Shown one piece after another: positions 2 to 5,997 of a DNA stretch of 64,000 nt. A program made the position numbers and the translations under genes. Positions within the stretch are counted from its first letter, which is position 1. Every line of letters begins with the position of its first letter. This DNA comes from Isoptericola halotolerans. GTDB lineage: Bacteria > Actinomycetota > Actinomycetes > Actinomycetales > Cellulomonadaceae. The notes below the pieces were generated by a model. It made no database searches, was not told the DNA's origin, and saw nothing but the letters and a program-made list of their open reading frames with translations. Location: contig NZ_JABEZU010000003.1 in NCBI RefSeq assembly GCF_013149785.1, positions 310,001 to 374,000 of the forward strand, given 5' to 3'.

Positions 2-703
2 GGCTCGGCCGACTCCGCCCCGCACGTGCGGCTCGCGCTGAAGCAGGACTGGTCCGCCGCCGAACCGGGCATCGGACTCGCTCTGCAGAGGGAGCAGTTC
101 GCGAAGTTCCGCTGGGACGCCGACGGCGGCCCGTGGCTCGTCGTGCTGAACTGCTGCGAGGGTGCCGCCCCGTCACGCGAGGGTCTGACGTCCCTGGCAC
201 GCGACCTGGTCAGCTCCGGGGTGGCGCCGGCCGTGATCGGGATGCGCGAGCCGATCACCGGTGCCGTCGCGCACGCGGTGACCCAGGGCCTGTACGGCGC
301 CCTGCGCCAGGAGCTGTCCTCGAGGACCGCTCGAGCCACCTCGACCTCCACCCCCCTGGACTGGGCGGCTCTCGCCGTCGCGGCACGGCACCGGCTCGTC
401 TCCGAGTTCAACGTCGCCCGCGGCTCGACGCTGACCACGACGCAGGCCCAGGACCAGAGCCGCGAGTGGACGCTGCCGGCCCTCTACGTGCGCTGGGAGG
501 AGTTCCAGCTCCAGGTGACCACGGGGACCTCCGAGCCGGGGGCCGAGCGTGCGTGGCGGCTGGAGGTCGCCGCGCTGCAGAGCGTGCTGACCTCGTTGCC
601 GCCCGGGCAGGGTACGGCGTTCCGGGCTGCGGCCGTCGAGCGGGTCGCGGAGCTCGCCGAGCTGCTCGGGGTCACCCCCGAAGAGCTCGCGGAGGAACCA
701 TGA
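2..703 (+). CDS. CHAT-domain (caspase-like) protein, C-terminal part
   Basis: The reading frame is open to the left window edge, so only the last 233 residues are seen and the start lies upstream. The visible part resembles the C-terminal half of a CHAT domain: a strand ending in the nucleophile region VVLNCCEG, a helix SLARDLVSSGVAPAVIG, then a VAHAVTQGLYGALRQEL helix. In CHAT proteins the catalytic His precedes this Cys by about 50-60 residues; here it would lie outside the window. A roughly 120-residue tail follows with no recognised domain. The stop overlaps the next start by ATGA, so the gene is translationally coupled to a second caspase-like protein. CHAT proteases commonly act as effectors in bacterial conflict or signalling systems. 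The family call is from motif pattern only; target and partners are unknown. Confidence 0.7.
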   Translation, partial: GSADSAPHVRLALKQDWSAAEPGIGLALQREQFAKFRWDADGGPWLVVLNCCEGAAPSREGLTSLARDLVSSGVAPAVIGMREPITGAVAHAVTQGLYGALRQELSSRTARATSTSTPLDWAALAVAARHRLVSEFNVARGSTLTTTQAQDQSREWTLPALYVRWEEFQLQVTTGTSEPGAERAWRLEVAALQSVLTSLPPGQGTAFRAAAVERVAELAELLGVTPEELAEEP

Positions 704-2142
704 GGCGCGGCCCGGCGGTCGACCCGGCCTTCCCTGTCATGACCGACGCGTGGTCCGGGACGGAGCCGGTCACCGGCACCTTCGCACCGGACCTGTCGGC
801 CTGGCTCGCCGGTGAGTTCAGCACGGCCGAACGGACGGCACGCCCAGCGCCCGCCGACCCCTGGGACTGGAGGCACCCGGACGTCGGCTGGGGCCTTGTC
901 GCCCGCCAGCCCGAGGGGGCGGGCCGCGACGAGCTCGTGGCGATGGCCGACCTCCCTGAGGACATCCGGCGCCTGGTGACGGCGCGCGGCGGCAGGGTGT
1001 TCCGGTACCAGCCCGGACGCACGTACTCGCAGTGGACGCTCGTCGACCACGAGGGCGACGCCCAGCCGTTCCTGCCGGCCGTCCCGGCCGGGACGGGGGC
1101 CGGCTCGCTCCCCGCGTTCCTGCTCGTCTACGGCAACCCGGCGCAGGTGCCCTGGAGCGTGCAGCTCATGCTCAACCCCGTGCGCCACGTCGGCCGGCTC
1201 GACCTCGAGGGCGTGGCGTTGACCCGCTACGTCGACGCCCTGCTCGGCGAGTGGAGCGAGTCAGCCGCCCGGTGGTCGGCCCCGGTCGTGTGGGCGGTGG
1301 ACCACCGGGCGGGCGAGATCACGACGCTCATGCGCGACGTCGTCGCCGCACCTCTGCACGGCGACATGCAGCAGGACGACGAGCTACGGCCCACCTTCGT
1401 CGACGGCCGGTCCACCGACGCGACGGTGGCTTCTCTCACGGACGCCCTGGCCACCGGCCGGCCCGCCGTCGTCGTCACCAGCAGCCATGGCCAGACCGGC
1501 CCGCTCGACGACCTCGCGGCCATGCGCGCCGACCTCGGCAAGCTCGTCGACCACGACCACGCGCTGCTCGACCCGCAGGAGCTGTTGCGGTCCTGGCAGC
1601 CCGACGGGGCGATCTGGTTCGCGCAGGCCTGCTGCTCCGCCGGGGCGGACGGCCGGTCGGCCTACGAAGGACTCTTCGACGGCGACCTGGCAGCGACGCT
1701 CGACGGCGTCGCACGCCTCGGCCCCGTCACCTCGCCGCTGCCGCGTGCGCTGCTCGGTGCCGACAAGCCCCTGCGGGCCTTCGTCGGACACGTCGAGCCG
1801 ACGTTCAACTGGACGCTCGAGTTCCCACCGAACGCCCAGGAGCTCACCTCCCAGCTCCGCACGGCGCTCTACGAACGACTCTTCCTGGGCCTGCCCGTGG
1901 GGTACGCCATGGAGCCCTTCTACCGGCCTGTCGGCGGGCTTCTCCAGGGGTACCACGCCGCGCGACGGGAGTACCAGAGCACCTTCGGTGCGGCTGCCGC
2001 ACCCAGCCTCGACATGATGGTGTACAGCCGGGTCACCGCGCTCGACCGTGCGAGCACGGTCATCCTGGGCGACCCCACCGTGGCGATCCCGGTGCCGCCC
2101 CCGCAGCGGCTCCCGTCGGCGCGGGCTGGTGAGCAGCGATGA
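700..2142 (+). CDS. Caspase-like (clan CD) cysteine peptidase homologue, unassigned family
   Basis: A 480-residue protein with no signal peptide or membrane segment. The ATG at 700 overlaps the upstream stop, which decides the start. The N-terminal half (residues 1-230) has no domain I recognise. The C-terminal half shows the clan CD layout: a hydrophobic strand ending in TSSHGQTG (His263) and, about 48 residues later, a second strand ending in WFAQACCSAG (Cys311/Cys312), giving a possible His/Cys dyad. A further helix-rich segment (GLPVGYAMEPFY) ends the protein. It lies between a CHAT protein and an M15 peptidase, with 4-bp overlaps on both sides. Two caspase-like proteins side by side suggest a proteolytic relay or a protease with a regulatory paralogue. 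That role is inference; activity is not shown by sequence alone. Confidence 0.6.
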   Translation: MRRGPAVDPAFPVMTDAWSGTEPVTGTFAPDLSAWLAGEFSTAERTARPAPADPWDWRHPDVGWGLVARQPEGAGRDELVAMADLPEDIRRLVTARGGRVFRYQPGRTYSQWTLVDHEGDAQPFLPAVPAGTGAGSLPAFLLVYGNPAQVPWSVQLMLNPVRHVGRLDLEGVALTRYVDALLGEWSESAARWSAPVVWAVDHRAGEITTLMRDVVAAPLHGDMQQDDELRPTFVDGRSTDATVASLTDALATGRPAVVVTSSHGQTGPLDDLAAMRADLGKLVDHDHALLDPQELLRSWQPDGAIWFAQACCSAGADGRSAYEGLFDGDLAATLDGVARLGPVTSPLPRALLGADKPLRAFVGHVEPTFNWTLEFPPNAQELTSQLRTALYERLFLGLPVGYAMEPFYRPVGGLLQGYHAARREYQSTFGAAAAPSLDMMVYSRVTALDRASTVILGDPTVAIPVPPPQRLPSARAGEQR

Positions 2143-3110
2143 GCAGGATGAGGTTCGCCGGGAAGAGCTACAGCAACGGCAGCGTGCCCTCCGCCGTGCT
2201 GGCCGAGGTCCTTCCCTCCGGACGTCACGGCGTCAGCAGGACGTCGCGGGCCTATCTGCGCCGGGACGCAGCAGCGTCCTGGAACCGCGCCGTCGCCGAG
2301 GTCCGGTCCGGTACCGGCCTCGACCTGACCGTTCGCGGGTGGAACCGCTCGCTCGCGGAGCAGCGACGGTTCTTCCTCGAACGCTACCGGCCGGGAGCGC
2401 ACAGCCCTTTCGGTGACTACCGGCGGTACGGAGGATCCACCTACGGCCGGGTGCGCGGTGCGGCGGCAGCCGTCCCGGGCTACTCGAACCACGGCTGGGC
2501 CCTCGCGGTCGACGTCAACGACTTCGGCGGTGTCGGCGAGTTCGGAAACGCCCGCCGCGTCCGGGCCTTCCCGATCCTTCAGCGGCACGGATGGACGGAC
2601 ACGGAGGGCCGTCGCGTCAGGGAACCGTGGCACCTGGTCTACAGCCCGACCTCCGATGTCGGGGCTCGCCGACGTGCGCCGACCGCCCGCAGGACGCGGG
2701 CACCCCGACGGCCGCCGACGATCCGCCCGGGCTGCCCCCGGTCCTCCTGGACACGGTTGTGGAAGGAGTTCCTCACGGCGGAGGGTGACTTCGGTGGCCG
2801 CCCCGGACCGGTCTTCGGCGAGGCGCTCGCCGACGCCACCCGGCGGTGGCAACGGCGGGCCGGCCTGCACGACGACGCCGTGGTCGGCCCGCGCACCTGG
2901 TACCGGGCGGTCCAGGGGGCGCGGTACCAGGGCACGGGTGCCCGCGTGAAGATCGCTCAACGGATCGCCGGCCTGCGCGGACAGGACGTGGACGGCCGGG
3001 CGGGGCCCGTCTTCCTGAGGCGCTGGAAGCAGATCCAGCGCTGGCTGGGCGTGGTCCCGGACGCGAGCATCGGGCACAGGACGGTCGCCGCCCTCGTCCT
3101 GAAGGGCTGA
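2139..3110 (+). CDS. M15-family D,D-carboxypeptidase/endolysin-like protein with peptidoglycan-binding-like repeats
   Basis: A 323-residue protein. Residues about 60-170 form a zinc peptidase domain of the M15 (VanY/L-Ala-D-Glu endopeptidase) type: SNHGWALAVDVND supplies His118 and Asp125, and EPWHLVY supplies Glu162 and His165. After an Arg/Pro-rich linker (about 172-205) come two repeats resembling peptidoglycan-binding modules, each with a GRxGPVF...W..IQRW pattern (about 215-255 and 270-320). There is no signal peptide or transmembrane helix, as in phage endolysins. The protein would therefore need lysis, a holin or another route to reach the wall. The ATG overlaps the upstream caspase-like gene by 4 bp, making it the third gene of one transcript. 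The peptidase call is strong; the link to the two proteases is inferred from coupling. Confidence 0.78.
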   Translation: MSRMRFAGKSYSNGSVPSAVLAEVLPSGRHGVSRTSRAYLRRDAAASWNRAVAEVRSGTGLDLTVRGWNRSLAEQRRFFLERYRPGAHSPFGDYRRYGGSTYGRVRGAAAAVPGYSNHGWALAVDVNDFGGVGEFGNARRVRAFPILQRHGWTDTEGRRVREPWHLVYSPTSDVGARRRAPTARRTRAPRRPPTIRPGCPRSSWTRLWKEFLTAEGDFGGRPGPVFGEALADATRRWQRRAGLHDDAVVGPRTWYRAVQGARYQGTGARVKIAQRIAGLRGQDVDGRAGPVFLRRWKQIQRWLGVVPDASIGHRTVAALVLKG

Positions 3111-3131: not shown

Positions 3132-4208
3132 TCAGCCGGTCAGCGGGACCAGGGGTGGCACGACGCAGGTGCTGCTCACCGGGACGCGCCGCTGCTCGTC
3201 CGCGGCGCGGATCACGGACTCCATGACGTCCAGCACGTGCAGCGCCACCTCGGCCGAGGCCCGGCCGGTACGCCGGTCGGCGCTCCGGGAGACGTCCACG
3301 AGACCGAACCCACGGGCGGCACCCCGGTACCCGGCACCGTCCGGCAGCCTCGCCCAGTCTCCGCTCGTCCCTCGAACCTCAGCGGCACCGTCGAACGTGT
3401 TCGGGTCCGGCACCACCATGGATCCCTCGTCGCCGTGCACCTCGATCGGCATGGCCCGGGTAGCCGGTGCGTCGAAGCTCATGACCAGGGTGGAGACGGC
3501 GCCTGAAGCGTGCTCGGCGAGGGCGGTGACGTGCGTCGCCACCGCGACCGGGACCTGCTCGCCGGCGCGCGGGCCGCTGGCGATGGTCCGAACCTCCCGC
3601 GGCCGGCGCGCCACGGCCTGCACGGACTCGACCGGCCCGAGCAGGTGCACGAGCGCGGTGAGGTAGTACGGACCCATGTCGAAGAGCGGGCCACCACCGG
3701 GGGCGTAGTAGAAGTCGGGCTGCGGGTGCCAGAGCTCGTGGCCGGCGCACGCCATGGTCGCCGTCGCCGAGACGGGTCGGCCGATCGCACCCGCCTCGAC
3801 AGCGGCACGCGCCGTCTGGATCCCCGTGCCCAGGACGGTGTCCGGCGCGCTGCCGACGGCCAGTCCGGCCTCGGCGGCTGCCTCGAGGACCTGGCGCGCC
3901 TCAGCCGTCGTGGCGCACAGCGGCTTCTCGTTGTAGACGGAGAAGCCGTTCTCGAGCGCCGTCAGGGCGACCTCGGCGTGGGCGCCGGGCGTCGTGAGGT
4001 CGAGGACCCACTCGATCTCGTCGTCGGCCCACAGGTCGTCCAGGCTCGCCGCACGCACCCCGTGGGTCTCGGCGGCACGCCGCGCACGGGCCGGGTCCGC
4101 GTCGGCGACCGCCACGACCTCGAGGTCGGGGACCCGCCCGGCCGTCTCGAGATACGTGGAGCTGATGACGCCGCAGCCCACGACGCCGATCCTCAACGGG
4201 TCGCCCAT
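3132..4208 (-). CDS. Gfo/Idh/MocA-family NAD(P)-dependent oxidoreductase
   Basis: A 358-residue protein starting at ATG 4208 (MGDPLRIGVVGCG). The start overlaps the end of the upstream ThuA-like gene by 16 bp. The N-terminal Rossmann fold has the dinucleotide-binding GVVGCGVISS motif at residues 8-17. The family EKP motif follows (NEKPLCAT, about residue 96), as does a C-terminal substrate domain rich in aromatic residues (HPQPDFYYAPGGGPLFDMGPYY). Members oxidise or reduce sugars, inositols or their derivatives in the cytoplasm. Coupling to a ThuA-like protein and a LacI regulator points to uptake-linked catabolism of a disaccharide or sugar derivative; the substrate cannot be told from sequence. 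Family call is secure. Confidence 0.92.
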   Translation of the reverse strand: MGDPLRIGVVGCGVISSTYLETAGRVPDLEVVAVADADPARARRAAETHGVRAASLDDLWADDEIEWVLDLTTPGAHAEVALTALENGFSVYNEKPLCATTAEARQVLEAAAEAGLAVGSAPDTVLGTGIQTARAAVEAGAIGRPVSATATMACAGHELWHPQPDFYYAPGGGPLFDMGPYYLTALVHLLGPVESVQAVARRPREVRTIASGPRAGEQVPVAVATHVTALAEHASGAVSTLVMSFDAPATRAMPIEVHGDEGSMVVPDPNTFDGAAEVRGTSGDWARLPDGAGYRGAARGFGLVDVSRSADRRTGRASAEVALHVLDVMESVIRAADEQRRVPVSSTCVVPPLVPLTG

Positions 4209-4879
4209 GCCATGCCCCTCTCGATGATCGTCCGCACGGACGGGTGGGAGACCGTCTCGACGTCGTGCCCGGGCGTGACCACGCAGACGCGCCCCTGGCC
4301 CCACGTGCGCGTCCAGACCGCGGGGCGGACCAGGGGGCGTGACCACGGCTCCCAGGAGGGCGCGGGCACGGTGGTGGTGGCGAGCACGTCGCACAGGTCG
4401 TCGGTCAGGACCCAGTACTGCTCGGTCGTCAGCTCGAAGGAGTCGAGGCCGGCGACGACGGGGTGGTCCGCCGCGCCGGGCAGGATGTCGATCGTGTGCG
4501 GGACGTAGTTGTCGGCCGCCTCACCGACCCGCTCGTCCGGGTGCTTGCCGGGGTGCGCGGCGAACTGCCCACCGACGAGCTGGAGGTACTCCGCGTTGCT
4601 GCGGAACGAGTCGGCGATCCCTCCGTGCCAGCCGACCAGACCGGTGCCGGCGGCGACGGCCCGGCGAAGGCCTGCGACGGCGTCGCCGGAGATCTCCCCC
4701 ATCGTGAAGCACTGCACCACGAGGTCGACGTCGGACATCCGGTCCTGGGCGTACACCTCCGGCGTGTCCTCCACCCGGACGGTGTGGCCCGCGGCCTCCA
4801 GGCCGGGGATGAACAGGTCCGTGGTGGCGACGGGCGCATGGCCGTCCCATCCGCCACGGACGACGAGCACCTGTCCCAC
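4193..4879 (-). CDS. ThuA-like trehalose-utilisation family protein
   Basis: A 228-residue protein. GTG 4879 is chosen as start because AGGAGG lies at 4885-4890 with normal spacing; the open frame continues to 4969 without support. It has the ThuA class I amidotransferase-like fold: an initial strand VLVVRGGWDGH, the conserved GLVGWHGG (about residue 90), a QLVGGQFAAHPG segment and a final VVTPGHDVETVSHP segment. ThuA proteins accompany oxidoreductases in trehalose or related disaccharide utilisation; their chemistry is poorly defined. Its stop lies inside the start of the Gfo/Idh/MocA gene, so the two are coupled. A palindrome lies 27 bp upstream of the start, next to the LacI gene that precedes it on the same strand. 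Confidence 0.88.
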   Translation of the reverse strand: MGQVLVVRGGWDGHAPVATTDLFIPGLEAAGHTVRVEDTPEVYAQDRMSDVDLVVQCFTMGEISGDAVAGLRRAVAAGTGLVGWHGGIADSFRSNAEYLQLVGGQFAAHPGKHPDERVGEAADNYVPHTIDILPGAADHPVVAGLDSFELTTEQYWVLTDDLCDVLATTTVPAPSWEPWSRPLVRPAVWTRTWGQGRVCVVTPGHDVETVSHPSVRTIIERGMAWATR

Positions 4880-4905
4880 GTGCGCCTCCTTGAGCGAGTC
4901 GTGAT

Positions 4906-4927
4906 GCCGAGAGATCGATCTCTCGGC
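4906..4927. promoter_or_regulatory. 22-bp perfect palindrome, candidate LacI-family operator
   Basis: The sequence is a perfect 22-bp palindrome with core GAGATCGATCTC, centred on CG as LacI-family operators usually are. It lies between the LacI-type gene (ends at 4981) and the ThuA-like start (4879), about 27 bp before that start, where a bound repressor would block transcription. That it is bound by the adjacent regulator is inference. Confidence 0.7.
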
Positions 4928-4980
4928 GGTCAGGCTAGCCTTCCGCGCCGTCGGGCAGCAACCCGCCACCCGCCGTGCGT

Positions 4981-5997
4981 TCAGACCGACCGTCGCCGCG
5001 TGACCGACGTCGGGAGGAACTCTTGCCGTGGTGGAGAGCCCGGCGCGCCGAGCATCTCCAGCACGAGCCCGGCGGCGCGCTCCCCCATCTCTCGCAGCGG
5101 CTGGCGCACGGTGGTCAGCGGCGGAGAGGCCGACTCGGCCACCACCGTGTCGTCGAAACCGACCACGGAGACGTCGTGCGCCACCCGCAGCCCGGTGTCG
5201 TGCAGCACCCGCATCGCACCGAGGGCCATGAGGTCGGAGCCCGCGAAGAGCCCGTCGAGGTCCGGTCGCCGGGCCATGACGTCCCTCGCCGCCACGGATC
5301 CTGACTCCAACGAGAAGTCACCACCCACCACGAGTGCCGGCCGGATCTCTCGGTCCTCCAGCTCGTCCTGGAAGCCCCGGAGGCGGTCGTCGGACGGTGC
5401 GTAGCCGGCCGGCCCCGTGATCGTCGCCAGCCGGCGTCGCCCGGCCTCGAGCAGGACGCGGGCAGCCTGCCGACCACCGCCGTAGTTGTCGCAGTCGACG
5501 ACGCTGAGCCCGGCGTCCATCGCCGTCGTCGGCCGTCCCACGAAGACCATCGGCAGATCGAGCTCGGCCAGCTCGCGGAACAGGGGGAGGGACTCGCGCT
5601 GCAGGACGACGACGGCGGCGTCGACGTGGCCGGCGCTCAGGTAGCGCACCAGCGGCTGCCGGTCACGCTCGTCGTCCAGGAGGAGCACGGGCTGCAGCGA
5701 GCGCCCGAAGAGCACCGACGACGCTCCGCGCAAGGGGGCGCCCACGAAGGGCCCGCTGCCTCCGTCCAGCTCGCTGCTCGGGGCCACGAGCGCGACCGAG
5801 CCTGTCGACCCGCTCCGCAGCGCGCGCGCCGCCGTGTTCGTCCGGTAGCCCAGCGCCTCCGCCGACTCCAGCACCCGCCGAGCGAGGTCAGGGCGGACGG
5901 TCTCGGCACCGGCGAGCACGCGCGACGCCGTCGCGCGGGAGACATCGGCGGCACGGGCGACGTCCAGGAGCGTGGGGCGGAGGCGCTGCGTCGTCAC
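4981..5997 (-). CDS. LacI-family transcriptional regulator
   Basis: A 338-residue regulator starting at GTG 5997 (encoding MTTQRLRP). An ATG seven bases further upstream is out of frame and hits a stop. The N-terminal helix-turn-helix is typical (TLLDVARAADVSRATASRVLAG, residues about 9-30), followed by the hinge region and a periplasmic-binding-like sugar-sensing domain (about 60-335) with the family motif VSVVGFDDT near the C-terminus. It lies directly upstream of the ThuA-like/oxidoreductase pair on the same strand, separated by about 100 bp that holds a perfect palindrome. Local repression of that pair and relief by a sugar ligand is the likely role; autoregulation is possible but no operator was found on its own 5' side. 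Confidence 0.93.
   Translation of the reverse strand: MTTQRLRPTLLDVARAADVSRATASRVLAGAETVRPDLARRVLESAEALGYRTNTAARALRSGSTGSVALVAPSSELDGGSGPFVGAPLRGASSVLFGRSLQPVLLLDDERDRQPLVRYLSAGHVDAAVVVLQRESLPLFRELAELDLPMVFVGRPTTAMDAGLSVVDCDNYGGGRQAARVLLEAGRRRLATITGPAGYAPSDDRLRGFQDELEDREIRPALVVGGDFSLESGSVAARDVMARRPDLDGLFAGSDLMALGAMRVLHDTGLRVAHDVSVVGFDDTVVAESASPPLTTVRQPLREMGERAAGLVLEMLGAPGSPPRQEFLPTSVTRRRSV

Follow-up and report, generated by a model that had tools for sequence, protein, structure and literature searches.

A predicted clan CD protease operon at the left edge of the window

The window, a 64 000-nucleotide stretch of the Isoptericola halotolerans genome (contig NZ_JABEZU010000003.1; G000:C3:310001-374000), begins inside an operon that codes for an alpha/beta-hydrolase and several predicted members of the caspase superfamily (clan CD). 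An initial interpretation made from the letters alone (hereafter the sequence-only reading) had noticed three open reading frames (ORFs) at this edge, coupled by 4-nt ATGA overlaps and assigned to a CHAT protease, a second caspase-like protein and an M15 cell-wall peptidase. The three ORFs and both overlaps are indeed present. Genes 5' of the window were read from the flanking contig sequence (L009), an extension that the same reading had called for, and two further operon genes were found there, coding for an alpha/beta-hydrolase and a CHAT-like protein. With the window's three ORFs at its 3' end, the operon has five genes, all on the same strand, in the order alpha/beta-hydrolase, pseudo-CHAT, intact CHAT protease, gingipain-fold protease and M15/peptidoglycan-binding protein. 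The first four genes are denoted abh, chat1, chat and casp, respectively. In the following list, positions with the prefix C3 lie on the contig and the others in the window:

C3:306543-307874 (upstream of the window), same strand as CHAT: alpha/beta-hydrolase (P0006), 443 aa
C3:307885-309321 (upstream of the window), same strand as CHAT: pseudo-CHAT (P0005), 478 aa
2..703, plus strand: 3' part of the intact CHAT protease (PF12770); whole gene G000:C3:309318-310703, 461 aa
155..157, plus strand: CHAT Cys280 codon, predicted catalytic
700..2142, plus strand: gingipain-fold clan CD cysteine protease (casp, P0002), 480 aa, assigned by the fold match of its model
1486..1488, plus strand: casp His263 codon, predicted catalytic
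1630..1632, plus strand: casp Cys311 codon, predicted nucleophile
2139..3110, plus strand: M15-like (VanY) peptidase with C-terminal peptidoglycan-binding domains, 323 aa; accessory gene

The CHAT gene is open at the left edge of the window, which is straddled by its His228 codon, and has its stop at 703. The casp gene runs from its ATG at 700 (CCATGAGG) to 2142, and the M15 gene from 2139 (CGATGAGC) to 3110. Upstream, chat1 also overlaps chat by 4 nt, and abh stops 10 nt before chat1. Judged by hydropathy only (highest 19-residue mean 1.77), none of the five operon proteins showed a stretch resembling a signal peptide or a membrane span, in line with what the sequence-only reading had noted for the M15 protein.

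Folds and catalytic residues of the operon proteins

Residue conservation was counted in alignment sets selected by length and score. The CHAT protein, once completed upstream, scores 46.6 bits against the Pfam family PF12770 (gathering cut-off 24), and His228 and Cys280 are kept in 56/56 aligned homologues. Both the score and the His/Cys dyad place it in the CHAT protease family, and the CHAT motifs read earlier in the first gene are thereby confirmed. At E ≤ 0.01 the CHAT profile finds a single solved-structure sequence, that of SAVED-CHAT 8tl0 (E = 1.5e-7).

The product of chat1 is homologous to the CHAT protease by profile comparison (hhalign probability 97.4), and the best matches of its structural model include CHAT structures, the fold matches themselves being modest. 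It has no Pfam match and lacks the catalytic dyad of the family: the His is present in only 19/56 aligned sequences, the column matched by profile alignment to the CHAT Cys is Pro in 38/56, and any nearby Cys occurs in just 4/56. Judging by these residues, pseudo-CHAT is presumably a catalytically dead CHAT paralogue.

For casp no Pfam family was found at E ≤ 10, and its likeness to peptidase family C25 is a fold match only, with no match to the C25 profile. Its predicted model (pLDDT, the predicted local distance difference test, 92.1) matches gingipain, separase, CHAT, metacaspase and caspase structures. The predicted fold, together with the conserved His263 followed by Cys311, assigns casp to clan CD, and the caspase-like character first proposed for the middle protein is borne out. 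His263 is found in 63/64 aligned homologues, Cys311 in 64/64 and Cys312 in 62/64; the only casp without the His comes from L064, a degraded locus whose hydrolase gene is also split. The sequence-only reading had pointed to His263 and to either Cys311 or Cys312. A distant homologue at locus L118 keeps Cys311 and has Tyr at position 312, so Cys311 is the likely nucleophile.

In the alpha/beta-hydrolase, the triad Ser271/Asp336/His419 is present in 56/56 aligned sequences. Against the Pfam profile DUF900 it scores 18.5 bits, below the cut-off of 20.5. The enzyme is probably a membrane-attacking lipase or esterase.

A conserved four-gene cassette

Relatives were collected by scanning the genome_contigs collection with five casp sequences, which gave 64 loci, three of them partial. 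Five records from a plasmid collection (two from one strain) and the window's own locus brought the total to 70 loci, or 69 after removal of the duplicate L015. The genes abh, chat1, chat and casp lie on one strand and in that order at 50/69 casp-bearing loci, three of which have broken genes (L054, L064 and L074); the other 19 loci are truncated, partial, interrupted or variant. The cassette occurs in Actinomycetota, Pseudomonadota, Chloroflexota and Gemmatimonadota. Median gaps at the abh/chat1, chat1/chat and chat/casp junctions are 9, -4 and -4 nt, with a 4-nt overlap at each of the latter two in 26/50 ordered loci.

Within this set the cassette genes diverge at different rates. For the 46 loci in which all four genes passed the filters, median identities are 38% (hydrolase), 24% (pseudo-CHAT), 26% (CHAT) and 41% (casp), and casp identity exceeds CHAT identity in 1035/1035 locus pairs and pseudo-CHAT identity in 1034. 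The CHAT pair diverges fastest, as expected of sensors; looser constraint would give the same pattern. Degraded or interrupted cassettes are seen at L064, L072, L074 and L054, which suggests that the cassette was lost or disabled in some lineages, unless the breaks are sequencing errors.

The distribution is very patchy. Among 297 genomes of the same order casp was found in the window's own genome only, and among 396 genomes of the same phylum in three, including its own, the third being a partial match. In the phylum of the genome that holds L073 (a Myxococcales bin), 12/329 genomes have casp matches, three above 460 bits (L073 among them) and nine below 100 bits; one of the 12 contains locus L109 with all four cassette genes.

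Fusions and effector exchange

Two gene fusions tie the hydrolase to caspase-superfamily proteases: in L031 it is fused to casp (935 aa), and in L050 to a C14 caspase (1064 aa). At other loci the hydrolase is missing and other genes accompany the proteases. At L073, chat1-chat-casp, with intact casp and CHAT dyads, is followed 34 nt downstream by a gasdermin gene (PADLOC bGSDM, bacterial gasdermin, E = 3.5e-69) and then, with a 4-nt overlap, by a DNA/RNA endonuclease gene (Endonuclease_NS, PF01223). No hydrolase match was found in this genome bin, which is possibly incomplete. Compared by phmmer (E ≤ 0.01) with the 70 loci and L108-L113, the L073 gasdermin had no match other than itself. At L108, from the phylum group of L073, the gene order is subtilase, metallo-beta-lactamase (MBL)-like protein, chat1-chat-casp and tyrosinase; the MBL-like protein, named by reading and without a Pfam match, is encoded directly upstream of the protease genes, and the genome has no hydrolase match. 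The closely related Bradyrhizobium loci L039 and L075 carry a papain-like protease upstream, and the L039 genome has no hydrolase match. The hydrolase is also absent from L053 and L055, with no evident replacement, though in L055 casp is the last gene on the contig and a single weak hydrolase match was found in the genome. In all, no hydrolase match was found in 5/6 genomes searched (those of L073, L039, L053, L059 and L068), several of which are metagenome bins and may be incomplete.

Several further genes were noticed around casp homologues. In the phylum of L073, divergent casp-like proteins (about 130 bits) at L110:8935-12006, L111:7404-10345 and L112:9287-12201 adjoin a phosphoesterase-like gene (named by reading), with a 4-nt overlap in L111 and L112; this is a possible different pairing of the protease family. 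Oxidases lie near several cassettes (tyrosinase, L108:7689-9137; LodA/GoxA, L012:16110-19198; animal-type haem peroxidase, L022:11281-13137; GMC oxidoreductase, L049:11506-12999), which may be chance. Three Embleya loci share a related gene near casp (cluster c13; L013:11580-12584, L063:12624-13856 and L078:14097-15101), and the product of the L013 copy combines DUF2278 and a lamin-tail domain.

The M15 gene is a local addition

The fifth gene of the operon codes for a protein whose PG_binding_1 score (34.6 bits) is above the cut-off of 23 and whose VanY score (22.7 bits) is just under the cut-off of 25. The zinc-site residues H118/D125/E162/H165 are present by reading (SNHGWALAVD, EPWH). Of the features first described for the third protein, the wall-binding-like part has a profile match and the zinc-site residues are present; its place in the peptidase family is putative.

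The sequence-only reading had proposed that the three window ORFs could be a unit, a proteolytic cascade ending in the M15 wall hydrolase, which would be the defining effector and lyse the cell from within. Such a role would fit the 4-nt overlap with casp, the zinc-site residues, the peptidoglycan-binding domain and the lack of a visible signal peptide. However, counting co-occurrence puts an M15 homologue at 1/70 casp-bearing loci, the window's own, and it is absent even from the nearest relative, L016, whose casp is 77% identical. The M15 gene is therefore a local addition outside the conserved unit, which is abh-chat1-chat-casp, and the conserved partner of the proteases is the upstream hydrolase. 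Moreover, a cytosolic wall hydrolase would need a route across the membrane, and the five operon proteins gave no sign of a membrane span. We regard the M15 protein as a very improbable defining effector.

Whether the added gene takes part in the function of the cassette at all is a separate matter: it could supply a further lytic payload or stand by without a role. We put at even odds that it is a chance neighbour, captured or read through, with an unrelated function in wall metabolism, which would be compatible with a conflict function of the other four genes. Besides its single occurrence, this agrees with the variability of the position: the gene that follows casp shares its strand in only 26/63 loci, and the ten or so that were scanned belong to different families. 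On the other hand, casp and the M15 gene overlap exactly and are likely to be translationally coupled, and hydrolytic genes lie close by in the same direction in some other cassettes too (gasdermin and nuclease in L073, a C92 amidase in L065 and an M28 peptidase in L025).

On the other side of the M15 gene, window positions 3132-5997 hold minus-strand ORFs, convergent with it and named by reading as Gfo/Idh/MocA-like, ThuA-like and LacI-like. An annotated Gfo/Idh/MocA-ThuA pair also occurs about 8 kb from the cassette of Gemmobacter (L011), which is probably a coincidence.

Genomic context and the likely function of the cassette

Some cassettes have conflict-type genes as neighbours. L031 is accompanied by genes for a WD40 protein and, on the opposite strand, a TPR-CHAT protein, an AAA protein (sub-threshold bpMoxR match) and a CHAT-VMAP-C protein. 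In L059, casp is followed on the same strand after 39 nt by an LCAT-like hydrolase gene, then by a caspase-VMAP-C gene and, further on, by a gene whose product matches GAF and response-regulator domains and, weakly, a caspase. No vWA domain was detected at L031 or L059. Hsp70, clostripain and CHATs are encoded at L026, a subtilase and CHATs at L068. The Variovorax genome that contains L033 also has a distant second set, CHAT-hydrolase-casp (L118:3180-9671), in which the checked catalytic residues are kept.

With a probability of about 0.55, we interpret the cassette as a stand-alone cell-death or defence module composed of three clan CD proteins and an exchangeable effector. Given the observed operon structure, conserved gene order, predicted folds of two proteins, kept or lost catalytic residues, fusions and effector exchange, we infer this function from architecture and catalytic residues. 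The pseudo-CHAT and CHAT pair might sense a trigger and start CHAT proteolysis, pseudo-CHAT regulating the cascade; by analogy with precedents such as the type III CRISPR system in which a prokaryotic caspase is switched on by SAVED-CHAT, and considering the adjacency of the genes, CHAT would then activate, or act with, the cytosolic gingipain-fold protease, which in turn would work with or release the effector. The effector would normally be the alpha/beta-hydrolase attacking membranes, and in one relative (L073) a gasdermin pore plus a nuclease; in the window genome an intracellular M15/peptidoglycan-binding enzyme has been added at the 3' end, perhaps as extra lytic payload. A proteolytic switch that releases an effector has precedents in the cleavage of bacterial gasdermins by adjacent proteases (as given in the accessible part of the review PMC9612521) and in the activation of the Canu pro-nuclease (likewise, from the accessible part of PMC12799240). 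The death or defence module suggested by the sequence-only reading is in this respect partly supported, though not with the M15 enzyme at its end.

Several results weigh against such a module. Profiles of casp and CHAT are joined only weakly by sequence (hhalign probability 25). No relatives were found in the viral contigs or phages searched. Sequences in the casp tree cluster by phylum, although some mixing is seen (9 changes, compared with a minimum of 5 and 23.8 after shuffling), and since the tree follows phyla fairly closely, strong recent mobility is not supported. The gasdermin case comes from a single locus of a single metagenome bin, and such bins may be missing genes. No recognizable sensor or nucleoside triphosphatase (NTPase) domain was found in the operon proteins by profile scans. 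In PADLOC scans at E ≤ 0.1, casp, the hydrolase, pseudo-CHAT and the M15 protein had no match, and CHAT matched SAVED_CHAT weakly (E = 1.1e-7). Finally, PADLOC families are not clearly enriched in immediate relative to distant neighbours (43 versus 34; 98 proteins each), a comparison in which many models are redundant and their members uncountable.

This last result, together with the mostly ordinary enzymes among Pfam families of immediate neighbours (first 25 of 116 listed), would also be in accord with a regulated processing pathway, in which the proteases activate the hydrolase for metabolism or signalling, for example to mature or turn over a substrate that carries lipid or ester modifications, or as a stress-induced lipase system. 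The hydrolase, with its triad intact throughout the alignment, is after all the usual enzyme partner. The very patchy distribution, the gasdermin and nuclease that follow the L073 protease genes where no hydrolase was found, and the VMAP-C genes adjoining two relatives all speak against such a pathway, and we consider it unlikely.

Cautiously worded, the death or defence module is a conserved cassette of clan CD proteases and a hydrolase that is likely to act in conflict; worded more boldly, it would be a bacterial caspase cascade whose effectors can be exchanged. Taken to its end, the latter would be a self-contained, NTPase-free, apoptosis-like pathway, in which the dead CHAT licenses an active CHAT initiator, which activates a gingipain-fold executioner, which in turn releases one of several effectors (lipase-like hydrolase, gasdermin with nuclease, MBL-like protein, papain-like protease or, here, wall hydrolase). 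This version is speculative and somewhat doubtful. It would resemble eukaryotic caspases in that these are regulated by pseudo-proteases, as proposed here for the dead CHAT.

The cassette unites three clan CD proteins, including an intracellular gingipain-fold protein and a dead paralogue, in one conserved unit whose protease core is combined with different effectors. With it one can test directly whether bacteria have multi-step caspase cascades outside CRISPR, and whether the hydrolase encoded beside bacterial caspases, as described in the accessible part of PMC7159879, is a membrane-attacking equivalent of gasdermin.

Comparison with known systems

The five operon proteins do not correspond to any known anti-phage system modelled in PADLOC, and no description of the cassette was found in the literature searched, in agreement with the first impression that the trio was not a described system. 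The accessible part of PMC12799240 lists gasdermins and CRISPR, NLR-like and Canu systems as known settings of bacterial caspase-family proteases.

Gingipains (C25) share the fold of casp; however, casp is only 11-15% identical to them, has no Pfam match and no visible signal peptide, and lies in an operon with CHATs. SAVED-CHAT and Craspase (TPR-CHAT/Csx29) share the CHAT domain and its catalytic dyad, whereas SAVED, TPR and CRISPR domains were not found in the five operon proteins. In Canu, a caspase-family protease activates a pro-effector (PMC12799240, accessible part), and the MBL-like protein of L108, directly 5' of the protease genes, recalls this arrangement. Yet Canu, as that portion of the paper has it, combines a MALT1-like caspase with an immunoglobulin-like fold and CanB, whereas the cassette has CHAT and a gingipain-fold protein, and profile scans detected no MBL domain in the five operon proteins.

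Bacterial gasdermins are often encoded beside, and cleaved by, caspase-like proteases (PMC9612521, accessible part), and L073 presents just such a gasdermin beside a caspase-like protease. The window locus, where no bGSDM match to PADLOC was found in the five operon proteins, and most of its relatives differ in carrying a hydrolase instead, and the protease part consists of three genes. The VMAP (MoxR-vWA) ternary systems are also similar: those bearing caspases always have an alpha/beta-hydrolase neighbour, as far as the accessible part of Kaur et al. (2020; PMC7159879) goes. The combination of a caspase-superfamily protease with an alpha/beta-hydrolase is thus common to both, and casp homologues adjoin VMAP-C genes in L059 and L031. 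In contrast to the VMAP systems, MoxR, vWA and VMAP-C were not found in the five operon proteins, and a CHAT/pseudo-CHAT pair and a gingipain-fold protease come in addition.

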